Source: Paenibacillus rhizovicinus
Lineage (GTDB): Bacteria > Bacillota > Bacilli > Paenibacillales > Paenibacillaceae
Direction: 5' to 3'
Length of the DNA stretch: 64,000 bases
Assembly (NCBI RefSeq): GCF_010365285.1
Contig: NZ_CP048286.1
Span: forward strand, 1,941,001-2,005,000
The first letter of the stretch is position 1, and each line of letters opens with the position of its first letter. Below, piece by piece: positions 8,908 through 18,282 of the stretch. Under the pieces are notes generated by a model. The model made no database searches. It saw nothing but the letters and a program-made list of their open reading frames with translations, and was not told the DNA's origin. A program made the translations under genes and the position numbers.

Positions 8908-9054
8908 ATGAAAACATGGTTTGTCCCTCTGCTCATGCTTGTTGTTGTCTTGGCCTTAAGCGCCTGCGGCAACAACGCAAACAATAACCGTTCGGCCGGA
9001 AACGCCAATGCCGGTGACGATCCGGCTTCCGTCAATAGATTAGTATGGAGCTAA
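8908..9054 (+). pseudogene. truncated lipoprotein, probable iron-siderophore binding protein remnant
   Basis: A 48-codon reading frame with a GAAGGA site, a clear signal peptide (MKTWFVPLLMLVVVLALSAC) and a lipobox, followed by an Asn/Gly-rich linker that breaks off at a stop after RLVWS. Iron-siderophore binding proteins of Firmicutes start in this way, and the perfect Fur box just upstream supports that origin. Nothing resembling the substrate-binding fold follows, so this is probably the 5' remnant of a deleted gene. A genuine short lipopeptide cannot be excluded. Confidence 0.6.
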
Positions 9055-9075
9055 CGTTCGCCGTTATTTTATGCA

Positions 9076-9127
9076 TTGACAATTTATTACACCTCATTTA
9101 GAATGGGATGTAAGTAAGTACTTGCAT
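9076..9127 (+). promoter_or_regulatory. tetR promoter with operator box 1
   Basis: TTGACA (9076-9081), a 17-base spacer and TAGAAT (9099-9104) form a strong sigma-A promoter. Directly after the -10 lies GTAAGTAAGTACTTGCAT (9110-9127), an imperfect palindrome (GTAAG/CTTGC arms) where a bound repressor would block transcription. A near-identical copy at 9789-9806 precedes the dehalogenase gene. Confidence 0.75.
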
Positions 9128-9149
9128 TATGAGGTGGGTAGATAAAATC

Positions 9150-9737
9150 ATGAATGCCACTCCAACAACAAGCGAAAAAATATTACTGGCAACCATCAGC
9201 CTTATGGCGGAAAAAGGCTATGACAGCACAACGACCAAAGAAATCGCTCTGGCTGCAGGAGTGAATGAAGTCACTTTATTTCGGCATTTTGGAACGAAGG
9301 AGAAGCTGCTTGAGGCTGCCTTCAGTCAATTTCACTATGGCAATGAGATGACTATGCTCTTTAACGAGAGCCTTAAAGGACATCTCCATGAAGATCTGCT
9401 TGCCATAAGTCGAACGTATCATGCTATCATGAACCGGAACCGAGAGTTAATTTCAATCGCGCTTAAAGGAAGCAGCACTCTGCCCGACTCCGTTCTACAG
9501 GAGGCTTCGCGCAACCCGAAAAGCTTGAAAAATTTGCTCGTTGATTATCTAACCAGAATGTCATCAGAAGACAAAGCAGTTTCCTCAAACCCCGAGATCC
9601 AAGCATTGTCATTTATGTGGATGAATTACGGAGCTTTCATCAGTGGACTAAATACCAAAGAAGCCGTCTCAGAAAATACGCTGGACGAATTTATCGAAGA
9701 AAGCGTACGTTTATTTACTAAGGCGCTTAGCCCATAA
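9150..9737 (+). CDS. TetR/AcrR family repressor
   Basis: Transcriptional repressor of 195 residues. The ATG at 9150 is preferred because GAGGTGG (9131-9137) lies upstream; the ATG at 9129 overlaps that site. The N-terminal helix-turn-helix reads SLMAEKGYDSTTTKEIALAAGVNEVTLFRHFGTKEKLL, a textbook TetR DNA-binding domain; the C-terminal ligand domain is not conserved. The same 18-base box occurs at its own promoter and before the downstream haloalkane dehalogenase, so it probably represses both and is released by a small molecule. Confidence 0.92.
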   Translation: MNATPTTSEKILLATISLMAEKGYDSTTTKEIALAAGVNEVTLFRHFGTKEKLLEAAFSQFHYGNEMTMLFNESLKGHLHEDLLAISRTYHAIMNRNRELISIALKGSSTLPDSVLQEASRNPKSLKNLLVDYLTRMSSEDKAVSSNPEIQALSFMWMNYGAFISGLNTKEAVSENTLDEFIEESVRLFTKALSP

Positions 9738-9788
9738 TTTCCGGACTCCAAGAGCAGCCCCGAAGAGGGCTTTTCTTACGACCTCATT

Positions 9789-9806
9789 GTAAGTATGTGC
9801 TTGCAT
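9789..9806 (+). promoter_or_regulatory. operator box 2 before the dehalogenase gene
   Basis: GTAAGTATGTGCTTGCAT matches operator box 1 (9110-9127) at 16 of 18 positions, and both copies follow an ACCTCATT sequence. It lies 58 bases before the dehalogenase start. A shared TetR operator is inferred. Confidence 0.65.
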
Positions 9807-9863
9807 TCATAAATGCAGCATTTACCCATATTCAATCTAACCATATGAAAGGTGAGATGCTGA

Positions 9864-10742
9864 ATGGTTGCACCATTGTTTCCTTACGTAAAGAAGCGTC
9901 AACGAGTTCTTGGTCTAGAAATGTCCTACGTAGACGAAGGAGGCGGCGATCCGATTGTTTTTCTGCACGGCAACCCTACTTCCTCTTATCTCTGGCGTCA
10001 AATTATTCCTTATGCTCAAGATTTCGGTCGTTGCATTGCTCCGGACCTCATCGGAATGGGCGACTCCGATAAACTCCCCCATAGCAGTTCCGACTCTTAT
10101 ACATTCGTAGAGAATCGTCGCTATCTCGACACCCTATTGGAACAACTTGGCGTTAACGAACGGGTTACCTTTGTTGTGCACGATTGGGGATCGGCTCTGG
10201 CATTTGATTGGGCATATCGCCATCCGGAGGCCATTAAAGGCATCGCCTACATGGAGGGAATCATTAAACCTCGTAGTTGGAGCGAGATCCCGGAACGGGG
10301 ACGGCTGATTTTTCAGGCGTTACGATCCGAGGAAGGTGAAAAGATGGTGTTAGAAAACAACTCTTTCATCGAGACCAACCTTCCAGTCGGCATACTGCGT
10401 AAGCTGACGGAGGAAGAGATGGATGAATATCGTCGGCCATTTTCGCTGCCTGGCGAAGGGCGCCGTCCGACGTTAACCTGGCCGCGACAACTTCCGTTCG
10501 ACGGGGATCCGGCTGATGTGACGGACATTGTCAACGCGTATGGAGAGTGGCTTCCACAGAGCTCGTTTCCGAAGCTCTTTGTCAACTGCGCTCCAGGCAC
10601 GATGCCGACATCCCATGTCGAGTTCTGCCGTACCTGGCCCATGCAAACGGAGATAATCGTCAGTGGGCTTCACTATCCGCAGGAAGATTCGCCTCATGAG
10701 ATCGGCGCCGCACTTGCTGCCTGGTTAAAGGATTTATCATAG
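9864..10742 (+). CDS. haloalkane dehalogenase (LinB/DhaA subfamily)
   Basis: Alpha/beta hydrolase of 292 residues that should cleave carbon-halogen bonds to give an alcohol and halide. The full HLD-II catalytic set is visible: halide-binding Asn37 in HGNPTSSYLWR, nucleophile Asp107 and halide-binding Trp108 in HDWGSALAFDWA, acid Glu131 in YMEGIIKPRSW, and base His270 in GLHYPQEDSPHEIG. Length and spacing match LinB and DhaA closely. The start has an AAAGGTGAG site. Its natural substrate is unknown. It follows a TetR gene and carries the same operator box. Confidence 0.93.
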   Translation: MVAPLFPYVKKRQRVLGLEMSYVDEGGGDPIVFLHGNPTSSYLWRQIIPYAQDFGRCIAPDLIGMGDSDKLPHSSSDSYTFVENRRYLDTLLEQLGVNERVTFVVHDWGSALAFDWAYRHPEAIKGIAYMEGIIKPRSWSEIPERGRLIFQALRSEEGEKMVLENNSFIETNLPVGILRKLTEEEMDEYRRPFSLPGEGRRPTLTWPRQLPFDGDPADVTDIVNAYGEWLPQSSFPKLFVNCAPGTMPTSHVEFCRTWPMQTEIIVSGLHYPQEDSPHEIGAALAAWLKDLS

Positions 10743-10769
10743 CCGATTAATCGCACTCACCTGTCCGTT

Positions 10770-10793
10770 ACTTTATTTTCCCTCATCAGCATG
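10770..10793 (+). repeat. left copy of a 24-bp direct repeat bounding the island
   Basis: A 24-base sequence starting ACTTTATTTT and ending CTCATCAGCATG recurs at 17050-17073 with one mismatch, in the same orientation. The two copies bracket the 6.3-kb AT-rich island. Just before this copy, CTGTCCGTTA (10761-10770) resembles the left arm of the cassette-like sites. Confidence 0.7.
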
Positions 10794-11054
10794 TTGGTGA
10801 GAGAAATACAAGAAAAGTGCAGTTTGAAAACACCACGCTGCTATGATAATGCCAGGATGGAAAGCTTTTTTGCTACGCTGAAGAAAGAAAAGCTGTACAA
10901 GATTAAAACCGAGCACTACCCGATGGCTGAGATAAAATCCATTATCTTCAGGTACATCATGGTTTACTACAACAGGCGCCGGATCTACACCTCTATTCCA
11001 GGGGGCTGCCCCCCAGCCCTTTATCGCGAACGACTGATGTTAAAGGCAGCTTAG
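10794..11054 (+). pseudogene. IS3-family transposase, C-terminal fragment
   Basis: Only the last part of an IS3/IS150-type DDE transposase remains: CYDNARMESFFATLKKEKLY carries the final catalytic Glu, and YYNRRRIYTSIPGGCPPALY is the usual C-terminus. There is no N-terminal domain or orfA; the fragment begins at the 24-bp repeat. Its end abuts a second IS3 fragment that reads the other way. Confidence 0.85.
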
Positions 11055-11455
11055 CAATGGTTTTCTGCATGAGGGCCCGTGCCGCTCATGCTTTGAATGG
11101 CGCCACGTTTAGCCAGGCTCGCTCGGAAAGCTTGGCTCGTGAACTGACTGCCTCGATCGCTGTGATAGATCATTCCGCGAGCATTTCTTGCTTTACAGGC
11201 ACTCTCGAAGGCTTGGATGCAGAGCTCCTTACGCATATTGTCATCCATGGCTAGGCCTACGATTTCGCCATTAAAACAATCCATTACAGCTGACAAGTAA
11301 AGCTTGCCATCTGAACAAGGGACTTCAGTGATATCCGAGAGCCACTTTGCGTTGGGTGCGGAGGAGCTGAAGTCTAGGGTTCTTCGCTTTCGCCAATCCT
11401 GTAACGTGTGGTAGGCGAGGCCTATTTTATATTGATTACTTTTTAGAGATGTTTA
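11051..11455 (-). pseudogene. IS3-family transposase, central fragment
   Basis: The DDE core of an IS3-type orfB, reading left: NAKWLSDITEVPCSDGKLYL holds the first Asp, YLSAVMDCFNGEIVG the core strand, and MIYHSDRGSQFTS the second Asp. The frame continues upstream of the first ATG to about 11455 and is cut at the right. The C-terminal Glu region is replaced (SMSGTGPHAENHC then stop). It belongs to a different copy or an inverted piece relative to the fragment at 10794-11054, showing IS turnover at the island edge. Confidence 0.85.
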
Positions 11456-11516
11456 GGTCATTCAACACATGTACTTTAGCTATGGTACACTAAAATAGTA
11501 ATCCTTCTTCTTTAAT

Positions 11517-11951
11517 TTAGTCTTGGCTTACCTCCGCTGCATTGTGTTCCAACTGTTTACGAATACCTTCACGGTCGATCTGAATCCAATATTCAACGAT
11601 TTTGTCATTAGCAATCCTATATACGGCGCTCGCGATTTCAATGATTGGCTTCCCAGTCGGCGCAAATCCTTCGACTTCTCCAACATGCATCCCTGTTTGC
11701 TTCCACCTAACATAGACACGATCCTCAGAGGCGAGAAACTCTTTGATCTGCAGTTGGAATGCCCCGTATGCCTTCATCATATCCCGGACATGGTCCGCAT
11801 AATTTTGTGGCGACCGTTCAACAGTCTGCTCATTCTCCGCTGTCACCTGATGTGCAGCGACGCATCCTGCCATATAGGAATGTGCCGCATCAGGGTCAAG
11901 ACCGGAACGTACACGCGCGAAAAATTCTTCAACGATTTCTGCTGCTTTCAT
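11517..11951 (-). CDS. SnoaL-like (NTF2-fold) protein
   Basis: Small cytosolic protein of 144 residues, starting at 11951 after AGAGGTG. The pattern (VEEFFARVRSGLDPDAAHSYMA, then FAPTGKPIIEIASAVYRIANDKIVEYWIQIDREGI) is that of SnoaL-like polyketide-cyclase/ester-cyclase proteins with the NTF2 fold. A substrate cannot be told; many such proteins are orphan enzymes or ligand binders. It is the leftmost gene of the leftward accessory array and is followed by the IS3 fragments, preceded by hairpin site a. Confidence 0.8.
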   Translation of the reverse strand: MKAAEIVEEFFARVRSGLDPDAAHSYMAGCVAAHQVTAENEQTVERSPQNYADHVRDMMKAYGAFQLQIKEFLASEDRVYVRWKQTGMHVGEVEGFAPTGKPIIEIASAVYRIANDKIVEYWIQIDREGIRKQLEHNAAEVSQD

Positions 11952-12085
11952 GCCTTTACACCTCTTTTTATTGTATCTCTTAATTATAAAGTAAAGTATC
12001 GTTCTTCTTTCACTTATCAACTATTTCATTATAACGTTTTGGTGAACTTCTAAATTCGTAATACCTATGGTATTCATGAAGTGAT

Positions 12086-12170
12086 CAAACTATCCTGCTC
12101 GTTAGCGTAATGAAGGGCTGCCGGATTGGCAGCCCTCATGGTGTTCAATTAACGTTCCCCGTTTAGTTCA
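12086..12170. repeat. cassette-like site a (complete form)
   Basis: Left arm CTGCTCGTTAGCG (12095-12107), a 9-bp stem AGGGCTGCC/GGCAGCCCT (12114-12136), and right arm AACGTTCCCCGTTTAG (12151-12166). The hairpin could also act as a terminator. The same arms recur at four further places between the small genes of the island. Confidence 0.65.
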
Positions 12171-12173
12171 ATC

Positions 12174-12728
12174 TCATTTTCTGTATTTATAATATATCTC
12201 TGGTTTCATCCACATCCACGTACAGTACTTGTTACCTTCAGCGATGATAAATCTATCAAACCAAAGTTCAAAGTTCGCATTCAATGAAGAAGGATTTCTG
12301 CGAACATCTGCTAATTCACACCAATACAAATTGGTGTAGTCTCGTCCACAAACAGAATTTGTATCAATAAAAAGGAACTCTTCGCCCTCCTCCACTGCTA
12401 CCGGTATCCATCCCTTTGGAAGTAAATCATCATATACAGAATAAAGCTCATCAATTCTTTCTAAACTCAGTAATTCAATCCCCCCGCCGTATTCTGGAGA
12501 TGCAAATAGTGAGCCGCCATCGTGAATCCTTAAGAACTCTAAGTAATCCTCAGGAAGTGTAATTGACCACTTAGTCATATAGTTATTAATCTCACTTTGG
12601 GTTGCAGGTGGGTTAAAAGTAAATTTTACCTCACTATAACTTCCTTCAGCTGTGAATCTGAGAGTAATTCCCTCTTTAGTTAACCGATTCTTTAAACTTT
12701 CCAAACTTTTCATAATTACTGAATCCAT
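12174..12728 (-). CDS. SMI1/KNR4 (SUKH) family protein
   Basis: Protein of 184 residues with the SUKH signature: ITLPEDYLEFLRIHDGGSLF followed by an acidic, aromatic core (GGGIELLSLERIDELY, GWIPVAVEEGEEFLFIDTN). Start at 12728 has AGAGGTGAG. SUKH proteins are often immunity proteins against contact-dependent or polymorphic toxins, but no toxin gene lies nearby, so here it would be an orphan. Low GC relative to the flanks and hairpin sites on both sides suggest acquisition by transfer. Confidence 0.85.
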   Translation of the reverse strand: MDSVIMKSLESLKNRLTKEGITLRFTAEGSYSEVKFTFNPPATQSEINNYMTKWSITLPEDYLEFLRIHDGGSLFASPEYGGGIELLSLERIDELYSVYDDLLPKGWIPVAVEEGEEFLFIDTNSVCGRDYTNLYWCELADVRRNPSSLNANFELWFDRFIIAEGNKYCTWMWMKPEIYYKYRK

Positions 12729-12789
12729 TATTTCTCACCTCTTTAACTTTCATTATATGAATTAATAAATCCCTTTTGATGCCTGTCAT

Positions 12790-12815
12790 AAACATAACCT
12801 GCCCGTTAGCTGAAC
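12790..12815. repeat. cassette-like site b (left arm only)
   Basis: AACCTGCCCGTTAGCTGAAC carries the same CTG-CCCGTTAGC core as site a but has neither the hairpin nor the right arm. It lies between the SUKH gene and the next leftward gene. Confidence 0.5.
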
Positions 12816-12835
12816 ATAGATAGCCAATCATCTTG

Positions 12836-13348
12836 TTAATATAATTTGAGCATTTTTAGACCCCATTGAAACGTATCCACTTTTCGTCCATCCTTGAGCA
12901 CGAATATCAAGTTGGTCGGCACGTTATCATTAATGATAATCCTTTTATAAGCCGTACTTTCATACTTGGCTTGACCATCCGATACTTCGATTCGGTGCCC
13001 GATCGCTCCATCTGTTTCTGATTTGTTTTCCGTACGGGGGTGGATAATTACATAGGAGCGTTTGACGAGCCCGTTGCTTGATCTACCGAAATTCTGGTCT
13101 ACAATAACAAGAACTATCTCACCATCCTTGTTCGCTTGAAAGACGTAGTAGTAAGGACTCGTCTGAAGCAAGTCAGTAAATCCGACTCCAAGCCTCTTAA
13201 CGTTTGATGCATGTAGTTCCTTTGCAACATCATGTGTCTTGGGAATAGGATGATAAGTCATCCGCCATTCAAAATATCGGTATCCGAAAAAGGGGATCGC
13301 AAGCAGAGATAAGACGATAATTGATATTATGGCAAGCCGTTTCGACAT
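12836..13348 (-). CDS. membrane-anchored protein of unknown function
   Basis: A 170-residue protein with one N-terminal membrane segment (LAIISIIVLSLLAIPFFGYRYF) and an outside domain without any family I recognise. Features of that domain are TSPYYYVFQANKDGEIVLVIVDQNFGR and a C-terminal NLIFVLKDGRKVDTFQWGLK. Start at 13348 follows a GGAGAAGGAGC site. It belongs to the leftward set of small island genes between sites b and c. Confidence 0.75.
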   Translation of the reverse strand: MSKRLAIISIIVLSLLAIPFFGYRYFEWRMTYHPIPKTHDVAKELHASNVKRLGVGFTDLLQTSPYYYVFQANKDGEIVLVIVDQNFGRSSNGLVKRSYVIIHPRTENKSETDGAIGHRIEVSDGQAKYESTAYKRIIINDNVPTNLIFVLKDGRKVDTFQWGLKMLKLY

Positions 13349-13394
13349 GCTCCTTCTCCTTTGTATTTATATCTTCATGAGTATCCCTTAATAA

Positions 13395-13436
13395 ATTCAA
13401 CTATTCTGCCAGATGGGTTCAACTAACGTTCCCCGT
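13395..13436. repeat. cassette-like site c, split by IS110
   Basis: CAACTATTCTGCC (left arm, shortened) is followed by GTTCAACTAACGTTCCCCGT (13417-13436), the right arm of the site family. It is cut exactly after CCCCGT, where IS110 copy 1 begins; the expected TTAGCTTAAT continuation is found at the other end of the IS near 15195. Confidence 0.6.
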
Positions 13437-13813
13437 CCCTCGGTTATAAGGGTTTATCTCACATATACTCACTCATTCGCAGGATTTCATCACCTTGGAT
13501 TCAGGAGAATCTAAAGGAATGTATGACACTCATGCTGGTGGGCTTGGTCTTGGGTATGCGGGAATAGAGGAATGCTCAGGAATTATTCCCCAAATGCCTT
13601 CTACTGCACGCATACTCCACATTAACCTTAGAGGTTCACCCTCCCACAACTCAACGGGTCAATGCCCTTACATTCCTTCGTTATACCTGTCCAAGGTGTG
13701 GAGACCGATAGCGTTTAGCGGATGGGTCAGAGCCCTTATGGGGAACGAACTCGGTCCTCCGTGCTTTCTTTGTGAAATCCCGCGAATGAGTCATTATACG
13801 TGATGCTTCTTCA
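13437..13813 (-). other. IS110 3' non-coding end, candidate guide (bridge/seek) RNA region
   Basis: No gene is present in these 377 bases. IS110/IS1111 elements encode a structured guide RNA in a non-coding end that pairs with target and donor. This stretch is the longer of the two ends and holds several small inverted repeats, so it is the likely place, which is the IS1111-type arrangement. No structure was computed. Confidence 0.4.
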
Positions 13814-15100
13814 TTAAGCTGCTTCTGTCCAGGCTCGAACGGTTTTCTCTGGCGTGAACTTTTCTCCTCGTTGCACAATACCGACTAGAATTCGGGCAAG
13901 CTTCCCAATTAACTTAAATATGGATTGCTGCTTTTTCATCTTCTTTTCTTGCACATTGTTCTCATGCAGATGACGGAACACGGGGTTATTCCAAACGAGT
14001 TGAACCGTTGCAAGATAGAGATATTTTCGTAAGGCAGAGTCTCCTCGTTTCGAAAGAACTATGCGTCCTTTTCGCTTTCCAGATGTACTTTCAGCCAGAT
14101 TCAAGCCAGCCTTCCGTAGTACCTGTCGGCCATGTGCATACTGTCTTAAATCTCCTGTCCCAGCTAAAATGGCCGCAGTGAAGATCTTCCCGAGACCTTT
14201 TATGGTGCGAAGCTGTTGTGCCATTGGAATCTCAGAAAGCAGAGCTTCAATGTTCTTTTCAATCTGTTCAAGCATGCTGGTGACGCGCTCAAATTCTTCA
14301 ATGAGCCGTTGTAAATCTGCCTTCGCTTCTTCTTCAGCAGTTCGTTCTCCCACACTCCGTTTCGCTTGTGCGATGAGCTGCGCGGCCTTCTCTATCCCCG
14401 TAGAACCGCCAGCGCGCTGCATATGGACTCGCCAGGCATCGATGATGTCCGGTACCGTATACGTCTCCAAATCTCGTGGACAAGGGAACGTCTTCAGGGT
14501 CGCCAATGACCGCTTACAGGTCCAATCTTTGAATACAGTCGAATATTCGGGAAAACGGATATCCAGCCAGCGTACGATCCGATTCTGCAGTCGTATACTG
14601 TTCGTCACCCAAAATTCTCGATCACTCATCATCGTCCGTAACCGTTGGAACTCAAGCGGTTGACGCGTGTACTCGTAGTAGAAGCCCCGACTTACAGCGT
14701 CTGCGATGATAAGCGCATCTTTGGGATCGTTTTTTGATGGACTGTTATCCCGGTTTTCTTTGTTTCGCTTGGTCGTAGCAGGGTTAACCATGACCACGTG
14801 TAATTTCCGATCTGCTAACCAGTTGGCCAGATTAAACCAGTAGTGGCCGGTCGGCTCCATGCCGATGATGAGCTTCTTCAATCGATGTTTCTGCTGTAAC
14901 TCCGTCATCCAGCGGTTCAACTTTTCAAAGCCTTCCAAGCTATTTGAGAATGAGAGATGCCGTTTGGAAACCACGATTCCTCGGAAATTCGTAGCTTGTG
15001 CGACATGCGTTTCTTTGGCCATGTCGATTCCTACGACGAGATGCGAGGTGGTAATTCGTTCAATCCGTTGATTTTGTACGTCTGATTGCTTAAACTTCAT
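13814..15100 (-). CDS. IS110-family transposase (DEDD)
   Basis: Transposase/recombinase of 428 residues. The start at 15100 (MKFKQSDVQ) follows AAGGAGG. The N-terminal RuvC-like DEDD domain shows HLVVGIDMAKETHVAQ (first Asp), IIGMEPTGHYWFNLANWL (Glu), and NDPKDALIIADAV (Asp pair). The C-terminal transposase_20 part carries RTIKGLGKIFTAAILAGTG and FRKAGLNLAEST-like residues, with the serine region KRGDSALRKYLYLATVQLV. All parts are intact, so the element may be active. Confidence 0.93.
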   Translation of the reverse strand: MKFKQSDVQNQRIERITTSHLVVGIDMAKETHVAQATNFRGIVVSKRHLSFSNSLEGFEKLNRWMTELQQKHRLKKLIIGMEPTGHYWFNLANWLADRKLHVVMVNPATTKRNKENRDNSPSKNDPKDALIIADAVSRGFYYEYTRQPLEFQRLRTMMSDREFWVTNSIRLQNRIVRWLDIRFPEYSTVFKDWTCKRSLATLKTFPCPRDLETYTVPDIIDAWRVHMQRAGGSTGIEKAAQLIAQAKRSVGERTAEEEAKADLQRLIEEFERVTSMLEQIEKNIEALLSEIPMAQQLRTIKGLGKIFTAAILAGTGDLRQYAHGRQVLRKAGLNLAESTSGKRKGRIVLSKRGDSALRKYLYLATVQLVWNNPVFRHLHENNVQEKKMKKQQSIFKLIGKLARILVGIVQRGEKFTPEKTVRAWTEAA

Positions 15101-15105
15101 AGTAA

Positions 15106-15154
15106 GAGCGCCTCCTTGATGTGTTGTCGACAAACCCATCATACTGAGGCGCTC
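15106..15154 (-). promoter_or_regulatory. hairpin covering the transposase ribosome site
   Basis: GAGCGCCTC and GAGGCGCTC (15106-15114 and 15146-15154) form a perfect 9-bp stem in the IS110 leader. In the transposase mRNA the right half overlaps the AAGGAGG ribosome site, so the fold would hide it. On the other strand the same stem is followed by a T run and could stop incoming transcription. Copy 2 keeps the same hairpin. Confidence 0.55.
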
Positions 15155-15259
15155 CTTTTTTTACAAAGCCCATTTCTTAGGCTCAACAGGAATGTTTAGC
15201 TTAATCATGATCAGTATCGTACATCATAACCATTCCTTAATCCATAACGCAGAATGGGG

Positions 15260-15595
15260 CTATTCTTTAGATATCGTTCCAACAACTTTTTTTGTATTGC
15301 CATCTACAAATATCACATGATTTTTATCAAACGTTACTTTATACAAATTCTCTATTCTTTTCGGCTCAGCACCTTCAGGAATGGAATATTCATTAATCAT
15401 TTCATCGAATTTAATTTTTGTTACTTCTGCATTTTTCCATACCAGATTTAATTGTTGCTTATCTTGATTGGAAATACTGTTCAATGCTACTTCACGAATA
15501 GCATTTAAATCATCCGATTTTGAATTGACGTTAGAACAGCCGCTTGCGAGGGTCATCGACAACACTAAAAAAACTAAAATATAAATTGCTTTCAC
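15260..15595 (-). CDS. small lipoprotein of unknown function
   Basis: Predicted lipoprotein of 111 residues from the GTG at 15595; an ATG at 15661 would add 22 residues that do not resemble a signal peptide. The signal VKAIYILVFLVLSMTLASGC ends in a lipobox. The mature part contains YKVTFDKNHVIFVDGNTKKVVGTISKE, reminiscent of small PepSY-like or DUF domains, but I cannot assign a family. It is a leftward island gene between site d and the IS110 copy. Confidence 0.7.
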   Translation of the reverse strand: MKAIYILVFLVLSMTLASGCSNVNSKSDDLNAIREVALNSISNQDKQQLNLVWKNAEVTKIKFDEMINEYSIPEGAEPKRIENLYKVTFDKNHVIFVDGNTKKVVGTISKE

Positions 15596-15666
15596 GCTCT
15601 TTATTACCCCCAATCCCCAATGCTTGACATTTGATATTATAGACGTTGGATTAAGTAGCAATGTTG

Positions 15667-15722
15667 CGTTATTCTGCCCTTTAGTTGAGCGGCGGCGGAA
15701 TTCTATATGGGGTCCGCCGCCA
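15667..15722. repeat. cassette-like site d
   Basis: Left arm CTGCCCTTTAG (15674-15684) followed by TTGAGC and a 9-bp stem GGCGGCGGA/TCCGCCGCC (15691-15721). It has the same arm and hairpin order as site a, with a different stem sequence. It lies between the recombinase and the lipoprotein gene and can also serve as terminator. Confidence 0.55.
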
Positions 15723-15730
15723 TTGAATAC

Positions 15731-16435
15731 TTAAAAGAATCGTCGATAAAGCTCTCTCCGACGTTCGCCGCGGAGCTGTGCGTAAATTTGAGTGGTCGAT
15801 GTTTTCTCATGACCGAGCATACCTTGGATGAAATCTAAGGGGGCACCGTTATCAAGAAGCTGGCATGCATATGTATGTCGAAAGCGATGCGGATATACGT
15901 TCGCTTCAATTTCTCCCCGATCTGCAAGCCGTTTTAAGGCCCATCTAATCGTGGGTATAGCCATTCGTCTTGTTGGATGCGTATCGGTAACAAATAAGGC
16001 TTTGCAGGAGTCCTCGCGGCTGGTCAGGTACTTCTTTAACCATACTTTGCACTCTGTCGTAAAGTAAACTTCTCTTTGCTTCGATCCCTTGCCATTAACG
16101 ATTGCTGAGCAGTTCTCCCAGTTCAGGTCCTCGATGTTGATCTTCTCCACCTCTCCAACCCGGCAGCCGGTGCTGTATAGAAACTCCAGCAGCGCTCTTT
16201 CCCTGAGTGACTGACAAGAGATCTTTAAGTGTATGACGTCTTCCTCAATCAAAAACTTTGGAATGCGCTTATCTATTTTCGGTTCTCTTAGTTTTAGAGA
16301 AGGATTTGAAGTCAGATAAGTCTCTTCATAAGCGTAACGGAAAAGAGAACGAACAAACCGAATTCGATGACCCAGGCTGCTTGGCTTCAAACGATCAGCT
16401 TGTTTTGCTAAGTACAAGTGCATCTTTTGGGTCAT
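15731..16435 (-). CDS. tyrosine recombinase (XerC/D-like), 5'-truncated
   Basis: Site-specific recombinase of 234 residues in its present form; relatives have about 300. The catalytic set is complete: Arg in STGCRVGEVEK, Lys in GKGSKQREVYF, HRFRHTYACQLLDNG (His and Arg), GHEKTSTTQIYAQ (His and Tyr). The N-terminal core-binding domain is cut, and the first residues (MTQKMHLYL) are read from the IS110 copy-2 remnant, so the start codon is borrowed. The insertion typical of integron integrases is not seen. It may be the remains of the enzyme that moved the cassettes, or just a passenger. Confidence 0.85.
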   Translation of the reverse strand: MTQKMHLYLAKQADRLKPSSLGHRIRFVRSLFRYAYEETYLTSNPSLKLREPKIDKRIPKFLIEEDVIHLKISCQSLRERALLEFLYSTGCRVGEVEKINIEDLNWENCSAIVNGKGSKQREVYFTTECKVWLKKYLTSREDSCKALFVTDTHPTRRMAIPTIRWALKRLADRGEIEANVYPHRFRHTYACQLLDNGAPLDFIQGMLGHEKTSTTQIYAQLRGERRRELYRRFF

Positions 16436-16798
16436 TCTTCGATTGGCAGTTGTCGCGGTTTTCTTTGTTGCGCTTGGTTGTTGCAGGATTAACGATTACG
16501 ACGTGCAATCCTTTACTGGTAAGCCAGTTGGCCAAGTTCCACCAAAATGCCCCGTTGGCTCCATACCAATAATTACGCTGCTTAAACGGTGCTTTTGCTG
16601 AATTCCCTCCATCCACCGTTGCAACTTTTCAAAGCCCTCAATGGTGTTGTTAAACGATAGATGTCGATTCGTTAGCACGATTCCTCGGAAATTCGTAGCT
16701 TGTGCGACATGCGTTTCTTTAGCCATGTCGATTCCTACAACGAGATGGGTAATTTGTTCGATCCGTTGATTTTGTGCATCTGATTGCTTAAACTTCAT
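16415..16798 (-). pseudogene. truncated, frameshifted IS110 transposase
   Basis: N-terminal DEDD region only: HLVVGIDMAKETHVAQ and IIGMEPTGH are in one frame, and NLANWLTSKGLHVVIVNPAT and NDPKDAL in another. It cannot make an active transposase. It provides the in-frame ATG used by the downstream recombinase. Confidence 0.85.
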
Positions 16799-16893
16799 AG
16801 TAAGAGCGCCTCCTTGATGAGTAGTGGACAAACCCATCATACCGAGGCGCTCCTTTTTTGACAAAGGCCATTTCTTAGCCTTAACAGGAATGT
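16415..16893 (-). mobile_element. IS110-family element, copy 2 (5' remnant)
   Basis: The leader, hairpin and first third of a transposase gene close to copy 1 remain (start at 16798). Similarity stops near DPKDAL at about 16415, exactly where the recombinase frame takes over. A frameshift near 16550, between MEPTGHF and WWNLANWL, breaks the frame. The outer end again falls on GT | TTAG of a cassette-like site. Confidence 0.8.
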
Positions 16894-16956
16894 TTAGTTG
16901 AACAAAGGCTGCCAAGTGGCAGCCTTTGTGATGTGGAGCTCATTGTCCCCCGTTAG
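16892..16956. repeat. cassette-like site e
   Basis: After the IS110 copy-2 end come TTTAGTTGAAC, a perfect 13-bp stem (16902-16914 with 16917-16929, AGGCTGCC in its core), and the right arm GTCCCCCGTTAG (16945-16956). The left arm upstream of TTTAG was replaced by the IS. The stem shares its GGCTGCC/GGCAGCC core with site a. Confidence 0.6.
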
Positions 16957-17058
16957 AATAAAGAACTTTATTTACACTCAGCTGCTCACTTGAAGGAGCT
17001 GATTAAAGAACTTTATTTTGCGTTAAAGAACTTAATTTTCAATTAAAGAACTTTATTT
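16957..17058. repeat. four near-palindromic 17-bp repeats
   Basis: WTAAAGAACTTTATTT-like units start at 16957, 17002, 17022 and 17042 (spacings 45, 20 and 20). Each is close to self-complementary (AATAAAG/CTTTATT). No gene lies here. The last one runs into the right copy of the 24-bp repeat. Confidence 0.7.
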
Positions 17059-17073
17059 CCCCTCATCAGCATG
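17050..17073 (+). repeat. right copy of the 24-bp direct repeat
   Basis: Matches 10770-10793 at 23 of 24 positions. It is followed by TGCCGTTAGCG (17072-17082), another CGTTAG core. It marks the right edge of the AT-rich island. Confidence 0.7.
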
Positions 17074-17196
17074 CCGTTAGCGTTGTAACCGCTATCGTCT
17101 TTGTAATGTAACTGTAATATTTCCTTCATGTTCCTTTCAGAATCGGATTCTATAATAAACACATGACCCCCCTTTATTATATATTTTCTCTCTTGC

Positions 17197-17230
17197 GCCT
17201 GCGGATATTGCCGCAGGCCTCTTTGTTTTT
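17197..17230 (+). terminator. rightward hairpin terminator in the 17.1-17.6 kb gap
   Basis: Stem GCCTGCGG/CCGCAGGC with a 6-base loop and a CTCTTTGTTTTT tail. It is not adjacent to any rightward gene I can see, so it may end an unannotated transcript or insulate the island. Confidence 0.5.
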
Positions 17231-17264
17231 AAAGGCTTTTTACGGCTCACGGCCGTCTCCATAA

Positions 17265-17288
17265 CAAAAAAACGCGGCAGCAGCCGCG
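17265..17288 (-). terminator. leftward hairpin terminator
   Basis: CGCGGC/GCCGCG stem followed on the minus strand by a run of seven or more T. It would stop transcription coming from the KDPG aldolase gene. Confidence 0.6.
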
Positions 17289-17427
17289 CTTTCTATTAAC
17301 GTCCTCTATCACTCTACGATTGCATGCTCGATTTCAGCAGCGCATATAATTACATATTTCTTACACAGATGCAAAGCTGCTTCTATGATCCAAGCCAACC
17401 AAAACGATCATCGCAACTCCAACCACG

Positions 17428-17622
17428 CTTACGAATCCAGTTCACGCTATTCGCCCCATTCGGCTGCTTTTTGAAACGTAACGAATCCCACACACGCTAT
17501 TTAGTTGAAATGCTCTCAAAAAGCCATCATATGGCCCCTTTGTGCTGAAATAAGGCGCGTCAGATTCGTTAGCACGTCTCAAGTGACAATTTGGTCCGAA
17601 TAAGGTGCATACGATTCGTTAG
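17428..17622. repeat. four-box inverted repeat element, copy 1
   Basis: Four boxes of consensus TAACGAAYC-N(6-8)-CGCTATT lie at 17428 and 17479 (forward) and 17549 and 17599 (reverse). Start-to-start spacings are 51, 70 and 50 bases. The same ++-- layout with 50/70/50 spacing occurs at 42248-42441. The 17300-17640 gap holds no gene. Confidence 0.75.
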
Positions 17623-17640
17623 GGCTTCGTTAGAGCTTCG

Positions 17641-18282
17641 TTAGGACTTCGCTAACGCTTTTGCCGCGTCCGCGAACTTCCTCGCACGCTCTTCCAACAG
17701 GTCGAAGCGGCCGCTGCGTACCCAGTCGAGATTAACGAGCTTGCTGCCCATGCCGACCGCGCAAGCGCCTGCTTTGAAGTAATCGGCGATGTTGTCGAGG
17801 TCGACGCCGCCCGTTGCGAGCATCGGGATTTTGTCTAACGGCGCGCGAATTTCGGACAGGTACTTCCAGCCGAGCGTGCCCATCGGGAAGATCTTCACCG
17901 CTTCCGCGCCGGCTTTCCAGGCGCGAACGATTTCCGTCGGCGTCATGACGCCGGGCCATACCGGAACGCCGGTCTTCAAGCCGTAATCGACGACGGCTTC
18001 GTCGAGATTCGGGGAAATCAGGAATTGCGAGCCGGCCGCAATCGCTTCCTTCGCCATCTCCAGATCAAGCACCGTGCCTGCGCCGATGCCCGCTCGATCG
18101 CCGTACTTCTCGCGCCAGCGGCTGATCATGCCTGCCGCGCCTTCCGTGTTCATCGTAATCTCCATCAGCGTGATGCCGCCGTTCAGCAGCGCCTCCGCCG
18201 CTTGGTCTGCATACTGGTCCTCGATGTAACGAAAAATAGCGACGATCTTCTCTTGCTGCAATCTTTCAAGCATTACGCTCAC
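17641..18282 (-). CDS. eda: KDPG/KHG aldolase
   Basis: Class I aldolase of 213 residues, cleaving 2-keto-3-deoxy-6-phosphogluconate (and 4-hydroxy-2-oxoglutarate) to pyruvate plus an aldehyde. The GTG at 18282 is chosen because GGAGG lies 7 bases upstream. The Schiff-base Lys is in AEAVKIFPMGTLGWKYL, the catalytic Glu in ITLMEITMNTEG, and GIGAGTVLDLEMAKEAIAAG is the usual phosphate-region motif. No partner kdgK or edd gene is next to it, so it may serve uronate or sugar-acid use from elsewhere. Confidence 0.93.
   Translation of the reverse strand: MSVMLERLQQEKIVAIFRYIEDQYADQAAEALLNGGITLMEITMNTEGAAGMISRWREKYGDRAGIGAGTVLDLEMAKEAIAAGSQFLISPNLDEAVVDYGLKTGVPVWPGVMTPTEIVRAWKAGAEAVKIFPMGTLGWKYLSEIRAPLDKIPMLATGGVDLDNIADYFKAGACAVGMGSKLVNLDWVRSGRFDLLEERARKFADAAKALAKS

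Follow-up and report, generated by a model that had tools for sequence, protein, structure and literature searches.

A probable remnant of a two-core gene-cassette system with a non-IntI tyrosine recombinase in Paenibacillus rhizovicinus

Gene-cassette capture is known chiefly from Proteobacteria. In integrons, the attC sites travel with their genes, and the integrase IntI carries a specific insert that precedes the second catalytic block. In engineered recombinase-mediated cassette exchange, heterospecific sites flank the exchangeable unit. The IntegronFinder 2.0 survey lists one complete integron and a few clusters of attC sites lacking an integrase (CALIN) in Firmicutes (PMC9024848), and the dif (pdif) modules of Acinetobacter combine short cores, 6-bp spacers, two alternating module types and single-module replacement (PMC13141974). 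Here we describe a block at positions 10,761–17,095 of a 64,000-nucleotide stretch of Paenibacillus rhizovicinus DNA (NZ_CP048286.1, positions 1,941,001 to 2,005,000; the whole stretch is hereafter called the window). Judged by its sequence, the block is a degraded cassette array, of which fuller versions exist in relatives among the Paenibacillaceae and some other Bacilli. It is probably what is left of a gene-cassette system driven by a dedicated tyrosine recombinase outside the IntI family, with exchange at two kinds of short core, A and B.

We also lean towards regarding this system as a further class of gene capture besides integrons and dif modules, one that arose independently from a phage-like integrase and works as natural cassette exchange through two alternating heterospecific cores; genes, terminator hairpins and the recombinase would be three interchangeable kinds of unit, and an incoming gene would adopt the local hairpins. 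Such a system would be an independent answer to the gene-capture problem, and it makes testable why the sites within one array resemble each other. A search of titles and abstract openings in the open-access literature, which covered neither subscription papers nor preprints, found no description of it. The architecture, the two kinds of core, the points at which recurring units begin and end, and the tie to a single recombinase family were all computed from the sequences and are presented in turn below.

Boundary sites with two dyad cores and a hairpin

A preliminary description of the window had proposed single hairpin recombination sites between the genes. Instead, each apparent hairpin site is, as read from sequence, a pair of dyad cores with similar arms and a hairpin between them, the usual order on one strand being B–gene–A–hairpin–B–gene. 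Core A has the consensus TTNARCTAAC-GGGRMAC-GWTAGYTNAA with a spacer of mostly 7 bp, and core B the consensus TTNARCTAAC-GGGCAG-NWTAGYKNAA with a spacer of 6 bp. Both types, in a set of 293 A and 361 B cores, share the left arm TTNARCTAAC and the mirroring right arm GWTAGYTNAA; as these cores were chosen with a consensus, part of their conservation is built in, though not that of the flanking TTNAR and TNAA. When only the arms were searched for, with spacers of 4–10 bp, matches peaked at 6 bp (235) and 7 bp (268), against 7 and 0 in the reversed control, and dropped to 13 and 23 at the neighbouring lengths of 5 and 8 bp. The commonest 6-bp spacers are GGGCAG (111/235) and GGGTAC (36), and those of 7 bp include GGGACAC (45) and GGGAAAC (34). 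Six to seven bases is a usual crossover length for tyrosine recombinases. The exact two-arm pattern was found in 7 of 295 genomes of the family and never in the reversed control, and a two-core finder recovered 134 sites (at most 4 mismatches) in 107 loci and none in reversed sequences.

The hairpins between the cores are strong (median z −4.1; z < −2 in 96/113 sites), with predicted pairing of L'' with L' in 30 and of R'' with R' in 18 of the 113. The arms beside the hairpin showed no site-specific complementarity (3.67 observed, 3.80 permuted). Since the arms of one site match each other no better than those of different sites, they look like double-stranded binding sites rather than paired attC arms. 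Recombination seems not to take place at the hairpin itself, each arm more plausibly being a core of its own.

The cores of some arrays hold a small element, apparently another hitchhiker, whose ends resemble CTACCATG and CATGGATGG or GAATGG beside CTAAC. It was seen at L089:11290–11580 (minus strand, on a plasmid) and, in Paenibacillus, at about L167:16060–16126 and about L096:16815–16828, the last with the right end only.

Recurring units and the recombinase gene

The ends of blocks shared between loci are in excess at the cores: 106 of 259 lie within 40 bp of one, against an expected 12.4 and no more than 21 in any of 200 random sets. A gene module shared by two loci (85% identity or more) ends at both flanking cores, before either hairpin, in 45 of the 50 ordered pairs, where, as for the recombinase unit below, each locus of a named genome counts separately; the other five extend to the right (2), to the left (1) or both ways (2). 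A stricter set, restricted to different organisms with cores in both loci, retains 22 pairs of 9 modules from 14 organisms. Such single units recur between species in different contexts (the preliminary description had proposed a comparison between strains), with no neighbouring module in common within 600 bp in 24 of 25 directed comparisons (one of the sides lay at a locus edge). For example, an APH-like module is 96–98% identical across loci L040, L048, L083, L097 and L105; each of these copies begins behind CTAACGGGCAG and runs up to CTAACG, and the flanking sequence differs on either side. Similarly, the window module with a 133-aa gene has a 94% identical copy elsewhere in its own genome (L032) and a 79% copy in Paenibacillus artemisiicola (L142), both of which start after the CAG of a core B, the same left border, and are preceded by different sequence; the right border of the window module is uninformative because of an insertion of the IS110 family. 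The alignments show that a gene mostly does not bring its hairpin along. Since genes are found beside other hairpins in other genomes, the recipient can supply the site.

The modules themselves are small and oriented. Among 178 gene modules (median 658 bp), the longest open reading frame of at least 60 aa follows the array orientation in 165 of 171 cases and opposes it in 6. A scan of 60 of the 110 referenced cargo proteins matched 33 Pfam families (E ≤ 1e-5), foremost GNAT acetyltransferases, NUDIX and glyoxalase-like proteins, and five defence models with one or two proteins each.

A covariance-model search of relatives, suggested at the outset, recovered both a long one-way array and arrays beside a related recombinase. 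The model, built from ten sites, has 11 matches in the genome of P. rhizovicinus at E ≤ 1, seven of them on one strand of C1:3.6–70 kb. In genome G053, 14 minus-strand sites occupy L040 1,431–11,352 at intervals of 0.4–1.2 kb, mostly with one small gene between neighbours; two weak partial matches on the plus strand coincide with the same sites. Arrays also surround an intact orthologue of the window recombinase in genome G105 and in many named loci. The G105 protein (280 aa) is 91% identical to the window recombinase, and its gene has core A about 90 bp upstream and a hairpin and core B after the stop codon.

This placement recurs elsewhere. The nearest named relatives of the window recombinase belong to Paenibacillus. 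When genome contigs were scanned with five aligned relatives and the best 80 loci were taken, these came mostly from Paenibacillus, alongside Brevibacillus, Cohnella, Bacillus, Pseudalkalibacillus, Halalkalibacter and two metagenome-assembled genomes. In these 80 loci, all 179 matches of the site model R1 (E ≤ 0.01) share the strand of the recombinase. The best core (at most 4 mismatches) upstream of the gene is A in 51 loci and B in 3, with none in 23 and too short a flank in 3; downstream it is B in 46 and A in 1, with none in 29 and too short a flank in 4. The recombinase lies between A and B in 32 loci with both sides typable. The gene forms a shared A–recombinase–hairpin–B unit of about 985 bp that occupies the hairpin slot between A and B, and in 136 ordered locus pairs one end of this unit falls at A and the other at B. 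On two plasmids, of Sporosarcina psychrophila (L020) and of a strain recorded as Arthrobacter citreus (L089), the recombinase, as read from the sequence, is reversed and lies between half sites, with variant cores among small genes. The latter species label is doubtful: the recombinase of L089 (CP053689.1) groups with those of Bacillaceae and Sporosarcina, and an array is present there.

These borders also bear on an explanation in which only the hairpin units and the recombinase unit are mobile, as an insertion sequence (IS)-like element with short derivatives resembling miniature inverted-repeat transposable elements, both bounded by A and B, and genes move passively through homologous recombination or composite excision. 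The unit ends at A and B in the 136 pairs fit it, as do several copies in some genomes (a single contig of Paenibacillus sp. V4I3 carries six of the loci) and near-identical hairpins that repeat within a genome. We nevertheless consider it unlikely, because many gene-module borders also fall at cores and because the different neighbours of shared modules imply that genes change order.

Recombinase and sites are statistically linked. Sites (E ≤ 0.001, at most 14 candidates scored per genome) were found in 181 of 295 family genomes and the recombinase (E ≤ 1e-60) in 43; sites are present in 40 of these 43 and in 141 of the 252 genomes without a recombinase match (p 9e-7). In the wider class, 17 of 151 sampled genomes have sites, 10 of them outside the family. 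It is very unlikely that the cores are mere short homologies or a terminator-type repeat and that general recombination between repeats shuffles the genes. The strength of the hairpins, some of them followed by T-runs, and the sites in genomes without the recombinase would suit that explanation, but the conservation takes the form of two dyad arms with spacers, and the sites are tied to a recombinase that is itself framed by A and B. Equal occurrence between housekeeping genes, by which the preliminary description would have recognised a mere repeat, is indirectly opposed by the shared orientation of 165 of 171 module reading frames and by the module ends at cores.

Upstream of the recombinase gene, the ribosome-binding GGGAGG is paired with a CCTCCC-like sequence in a leader hairpin, seen at L080:10440–10500 and at the corresponding position of 24 further loci (alignment A6); its covariation is small, with changes on both sides in 2 of 10 pairs.

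Relation to integrons, dif modules and phage integrases

The recombinase belongs to the tyrosine recombinase superfamily by residues and fold. R138, K162, H229, R232, H255 and Y264 are invariant in 36 sequences and correspond to the catalytic R-K-H-R-H-Y set of the superfamily. A structure model with a mean predicted local distance difference test score (pLDDT) of 89 and a predicted template modelling score (pTM) of 0.62 best matched XerA (5hxy) in the PDB; IntI4 (2a3v) was also among the matches, so that the fold alone does not decide between families. Five recombinases score 82–95 bits with the IntI model TIGR02249, against a cut-off of 265, and also miss the XerC and XerD cut-offs. The closest model is NF040815 (XerA; 172–219.5 against a cut-off of 220), whose members are named 'site-specific tyrosine recombinase/integron integrase'. 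The insert of IntI1 (about 42 residues) has no counterpart in these recombinases, as the preliminary description had stated. TIGR02249 had no match in the P. rhizovicinus genome at E ≤ 1e-20, and none in 200 genomes of the class at E ≤ 1e-40, a result that shows little since the positive control was silent too.

For a 57-row tree, 24 of the 80 recombinases (stops or fewer than 260 aa) and one viral row were removed; 20 of the 56 intact members of the family and 9 of the 18 recombinases from hosts went in. The tree unites the family with integrases of prophages and plasmids (100/99) and separates it from IntI1 and from the recombinases of hosts, subject to a long-branch warning. These Xer-like integrases of about 280 aa are also the closest protein relatives outside array loci, at 32–56% identity on viral (IMG/VR) contigs L180–L259, and those that were read resemble ordinary phage integrases. 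They differ in their surroundings: of nine outlying loci whose recombinase flanks were read, seven have no evident core, and a possible core was seen downstream in L172 and upstream in L195. Among the five largest repeat families at each of five outlying loci, none is core-like.

The arrays share with integrons their one-way small-gene organization, a tyrosine recombinase, boundary hairpins, single-gene units that recur in different contexts, an excess of sites over recombinase genes (like CALIN) and IS110-type elements within sites. They differ in that the recombinase is from another clade, the boundary consists of two double-strand-type cores, the hairpin mostly does not go with the gene, and the gene for the recombinase occupies a hairpin slot as a unit of its own. 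A poor fit to attC had been suspected, and indeed the R boxes RYYYAAC and GTTRRRY agree with only 6 of 293 and 0 of 361 cores (2 at the next register). It is therefore highly improbable that we are dealing with a divergent true integron, one with folded single-stranded attC sites and an IntI-type integrase, despite the one-way single-gene cassettes, the hairpins, the small accessory cargo (GNAT, NUDIX, glyoxalase-like) and the near-cut-off NF040815 score: the enzyme is not IntI, the R boxes do not match, pairing of the arms is not specific to a site, and most shared genes leave the hairpin behind. The integron-like layout noted earlier accordingly lacks those defining integron features for which a clear answer was obtained.

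Dif modules resemble these arrays in having modules between short cores, 6-bp spacers, two alternating types and single-module replacement; theirs are inversely oriented sites with distinct XerC and XerD arms, served by XerC/XerD (PMC13141974), whereas the cores here are in direct orientation, have symmetric arms and two spacer types, and come with their own recombinase. That host XerC/XerD act on dif-like modules, as in Acinetobacter plasmids, is very unlikely: the 6–7 bp spacers and the alternation recall that system, but within a core one arm repeats the other in inverted form, the cores are in direct orientation, and a dedicated recombinase sits within the arrays. Engineered cassette exchange offers a parallel in design, in that an exchangeable unit lies between two sites whose arms agree and whose spacers differ; here the arrangement is natural, forms long arrays and has variable A spacers.

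From these comparisons we infer a route by which the proposed system may work. The recombinase would bind the dyad arms as double-stranded DNA and cut within the 6–7 bp spacer, each core recombining with another of its own type. By two exchanges, one per side, a single incoming gene would take over an existing slot while the hairpins already there stayed in place, and the same reaction at A and B would insert the recombinase unit into the hairpin slot; one exchange per side would account both for hairpins being rarely shared and for the fit of the recombinase unit. The hairpins probably terminate transcription between genes, and junctions with a lone B would fit occasional A-by-B events. A version with strict identical-spacer exchange at core A was rejected, given that 19 of the 22 pairs with a shared module have unlike spacers at A. 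These spacers also vary among sites with near-identical hairpins, and exchange at A would have to tolerate mismatched spacers, a property of some conjugative-transposon recombinases.

Several results weigh against a dedicated recombinase acting at A and B, the mismatched A spacers among them. In 11 of the best 80 loci, neither flank of the recombinase holds a recognised core, the long G053 array has no recombinase, and the recombinase-less genomes with sites require that the enzyme act in trans, was lost or is unneeded. Alternation is not strict, as 74 of 184 strong B cores lack an upstream A (fewer than 6 mismatches, within 150 bp), some of them being recombinase-unit ends; some cores also turn up by chance, since 14 of 184 random places lay no more than 150 bp from a core A (at most 4 mismatches), a few of them genuinely close to sites. 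More than half of the shared-block ends (153/259) are not near a detected core, and the APH-like module in L081, L124 and L158 (92–95% identity) lacks the common left border, its left part being different. Finally, a circular-cassette complementarity test (cassette start against its own R'') was negative (3.82 observed, 3.93 permuted); together with the negative for the arms, it argues against an attC-like folded site and gave rise to the two-core reading.

The window copy and its insertions

On the minus strand, the block runs from site e through an IS110 remnant, the truncated tyrosine recombinase, the 3' hairpin and a core B to the 133-aa gene, and on through a core A split by a full IS110 element, the 170-aa gene, a lone core B, the SUKH gene and the complete site a to the SnoaL-like gene (Table 1). 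All five small genes are read leftward, as first described, and the block is AT-rich as claimed, with 37–49% GC per kilobase across 11,001–17,000 against 52–65% in most other window kilobases; low values beyond it occur at 1–1,000 and 9,001–11,000 (43–50%) and at 17,001–18,000 (49%). The proposed common design of five sites holds for site a (12,090–12,165), the sole complete window site with core A, hairpin and core B; the other four are a lone core B, a site without hairpin (c), a hairpin with core B (d) and an IS110-interrupted site (e).

Table 1. Features of the cassette block, in window coordinates
Feature	Position	Strand	Remarks
SnoaL-like cassette gene (144 aa)	11517..11951	-	PF07366 8e-25; last recognisable gene module
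Core B of site a (CTAACGAGCAGGATAG)	12090..12105	-	1 mismatch to core B consensus
Hairpin of site a (GGGCTGCC/GGCAGCCC)	12115..12135	-	Read from sequence
Core A of site a	12149..12165	-	3 mismatches to core A consensus
SUKH/SMI1-KNR4 cassette gene (184 aa)	12174..12728	-	PF09346 4e-16
Lone core B between two genes, without hairpin	12794..12809	-	1 mismatch
Cassette gene (170 aa), no Pfam match	12836..13348	-	
Site c: core A (3 mismatches) and core B remnant (3 mismatches)	13401..13439	-	Hairpin deleted; IS110 cuts left arm of A
IS110-family element in core A of site c	13440..15199	-	Transposase 13814-15142; PF01548 and PF02371; ends from sequence
Cassette module with 133-aa gene, no Pfam match	15210..15673	-	Coding sequence 15260-15661; copies in own genome and P. 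artemisiicola
Core B closing the recombinase unit (site d)	15669..15684	-	2 mismatches
3' hairpin of the recombinase unit, site d (GGCGGCGGA/TCCGCCGCC)	15690..15721	-	Read from sequence
Tyrosine recombinase, about 46 N-terminal residues gone	15731..16435	-	Catalytic residues retained; PF00589 1.5e-34; 91% identity to intact G105 orthologue
Truncated IS110 copy	16436..16893	-	Ends in core B of site e and in recombinase gene; PF01548; repeat families D1-D3
Site e: core A, hairpin, interrupted core B	16894..16956	-	Core A 16940-16956 (degenerate right arm, 3 mismatches); hairpin 16902-16929; repeat I19

Site a is also the only strong window match of model R1 (12084–12172, 59.1 bits), the next-best scoring 14.2 bits (within IS110) and 12.5 bits (at 12,788). 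The left-arm motif barely exceeds chance in the window, with 22 matches (at most 2 mismatches) against a shuffle mean of 13.6 and 3 of 100 shuffles reaching as many, so that the case depends on the relatives. Rfam gave no family at gathering thresholds in three array loci or in window positions 10,500–17,500. With its recombinase N-terminus lost and two IS110 copies in its sites, the window copy is, by its sequence, a fossil, and it is probably unable to act alone because its recombinase is truncated. This bears out the earlier proposal of a Firmicute cassette system with other sites, or a fossil of one, fuller arrays being those of G053, G105 and many named loci.

IS110-family copies lie inside site cores in two genomes (the two window copies and L080:12401–13790) and may specialise on cores. 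A parallel exists in the IS110-type IS1111-attC group, which inserts into integron attC sites. A 24-bp direct repeat (96%) bounds the whole block at 10770–10793 and 17050–17073, each copy beside a weak core-like sequence; it perhaps marks the ends of another IS. Transposase fragments lie at the left block border, at 10791–11054 (plus strand, with an rve_2 match) and, putatively, 11051–11296 (minus strand).

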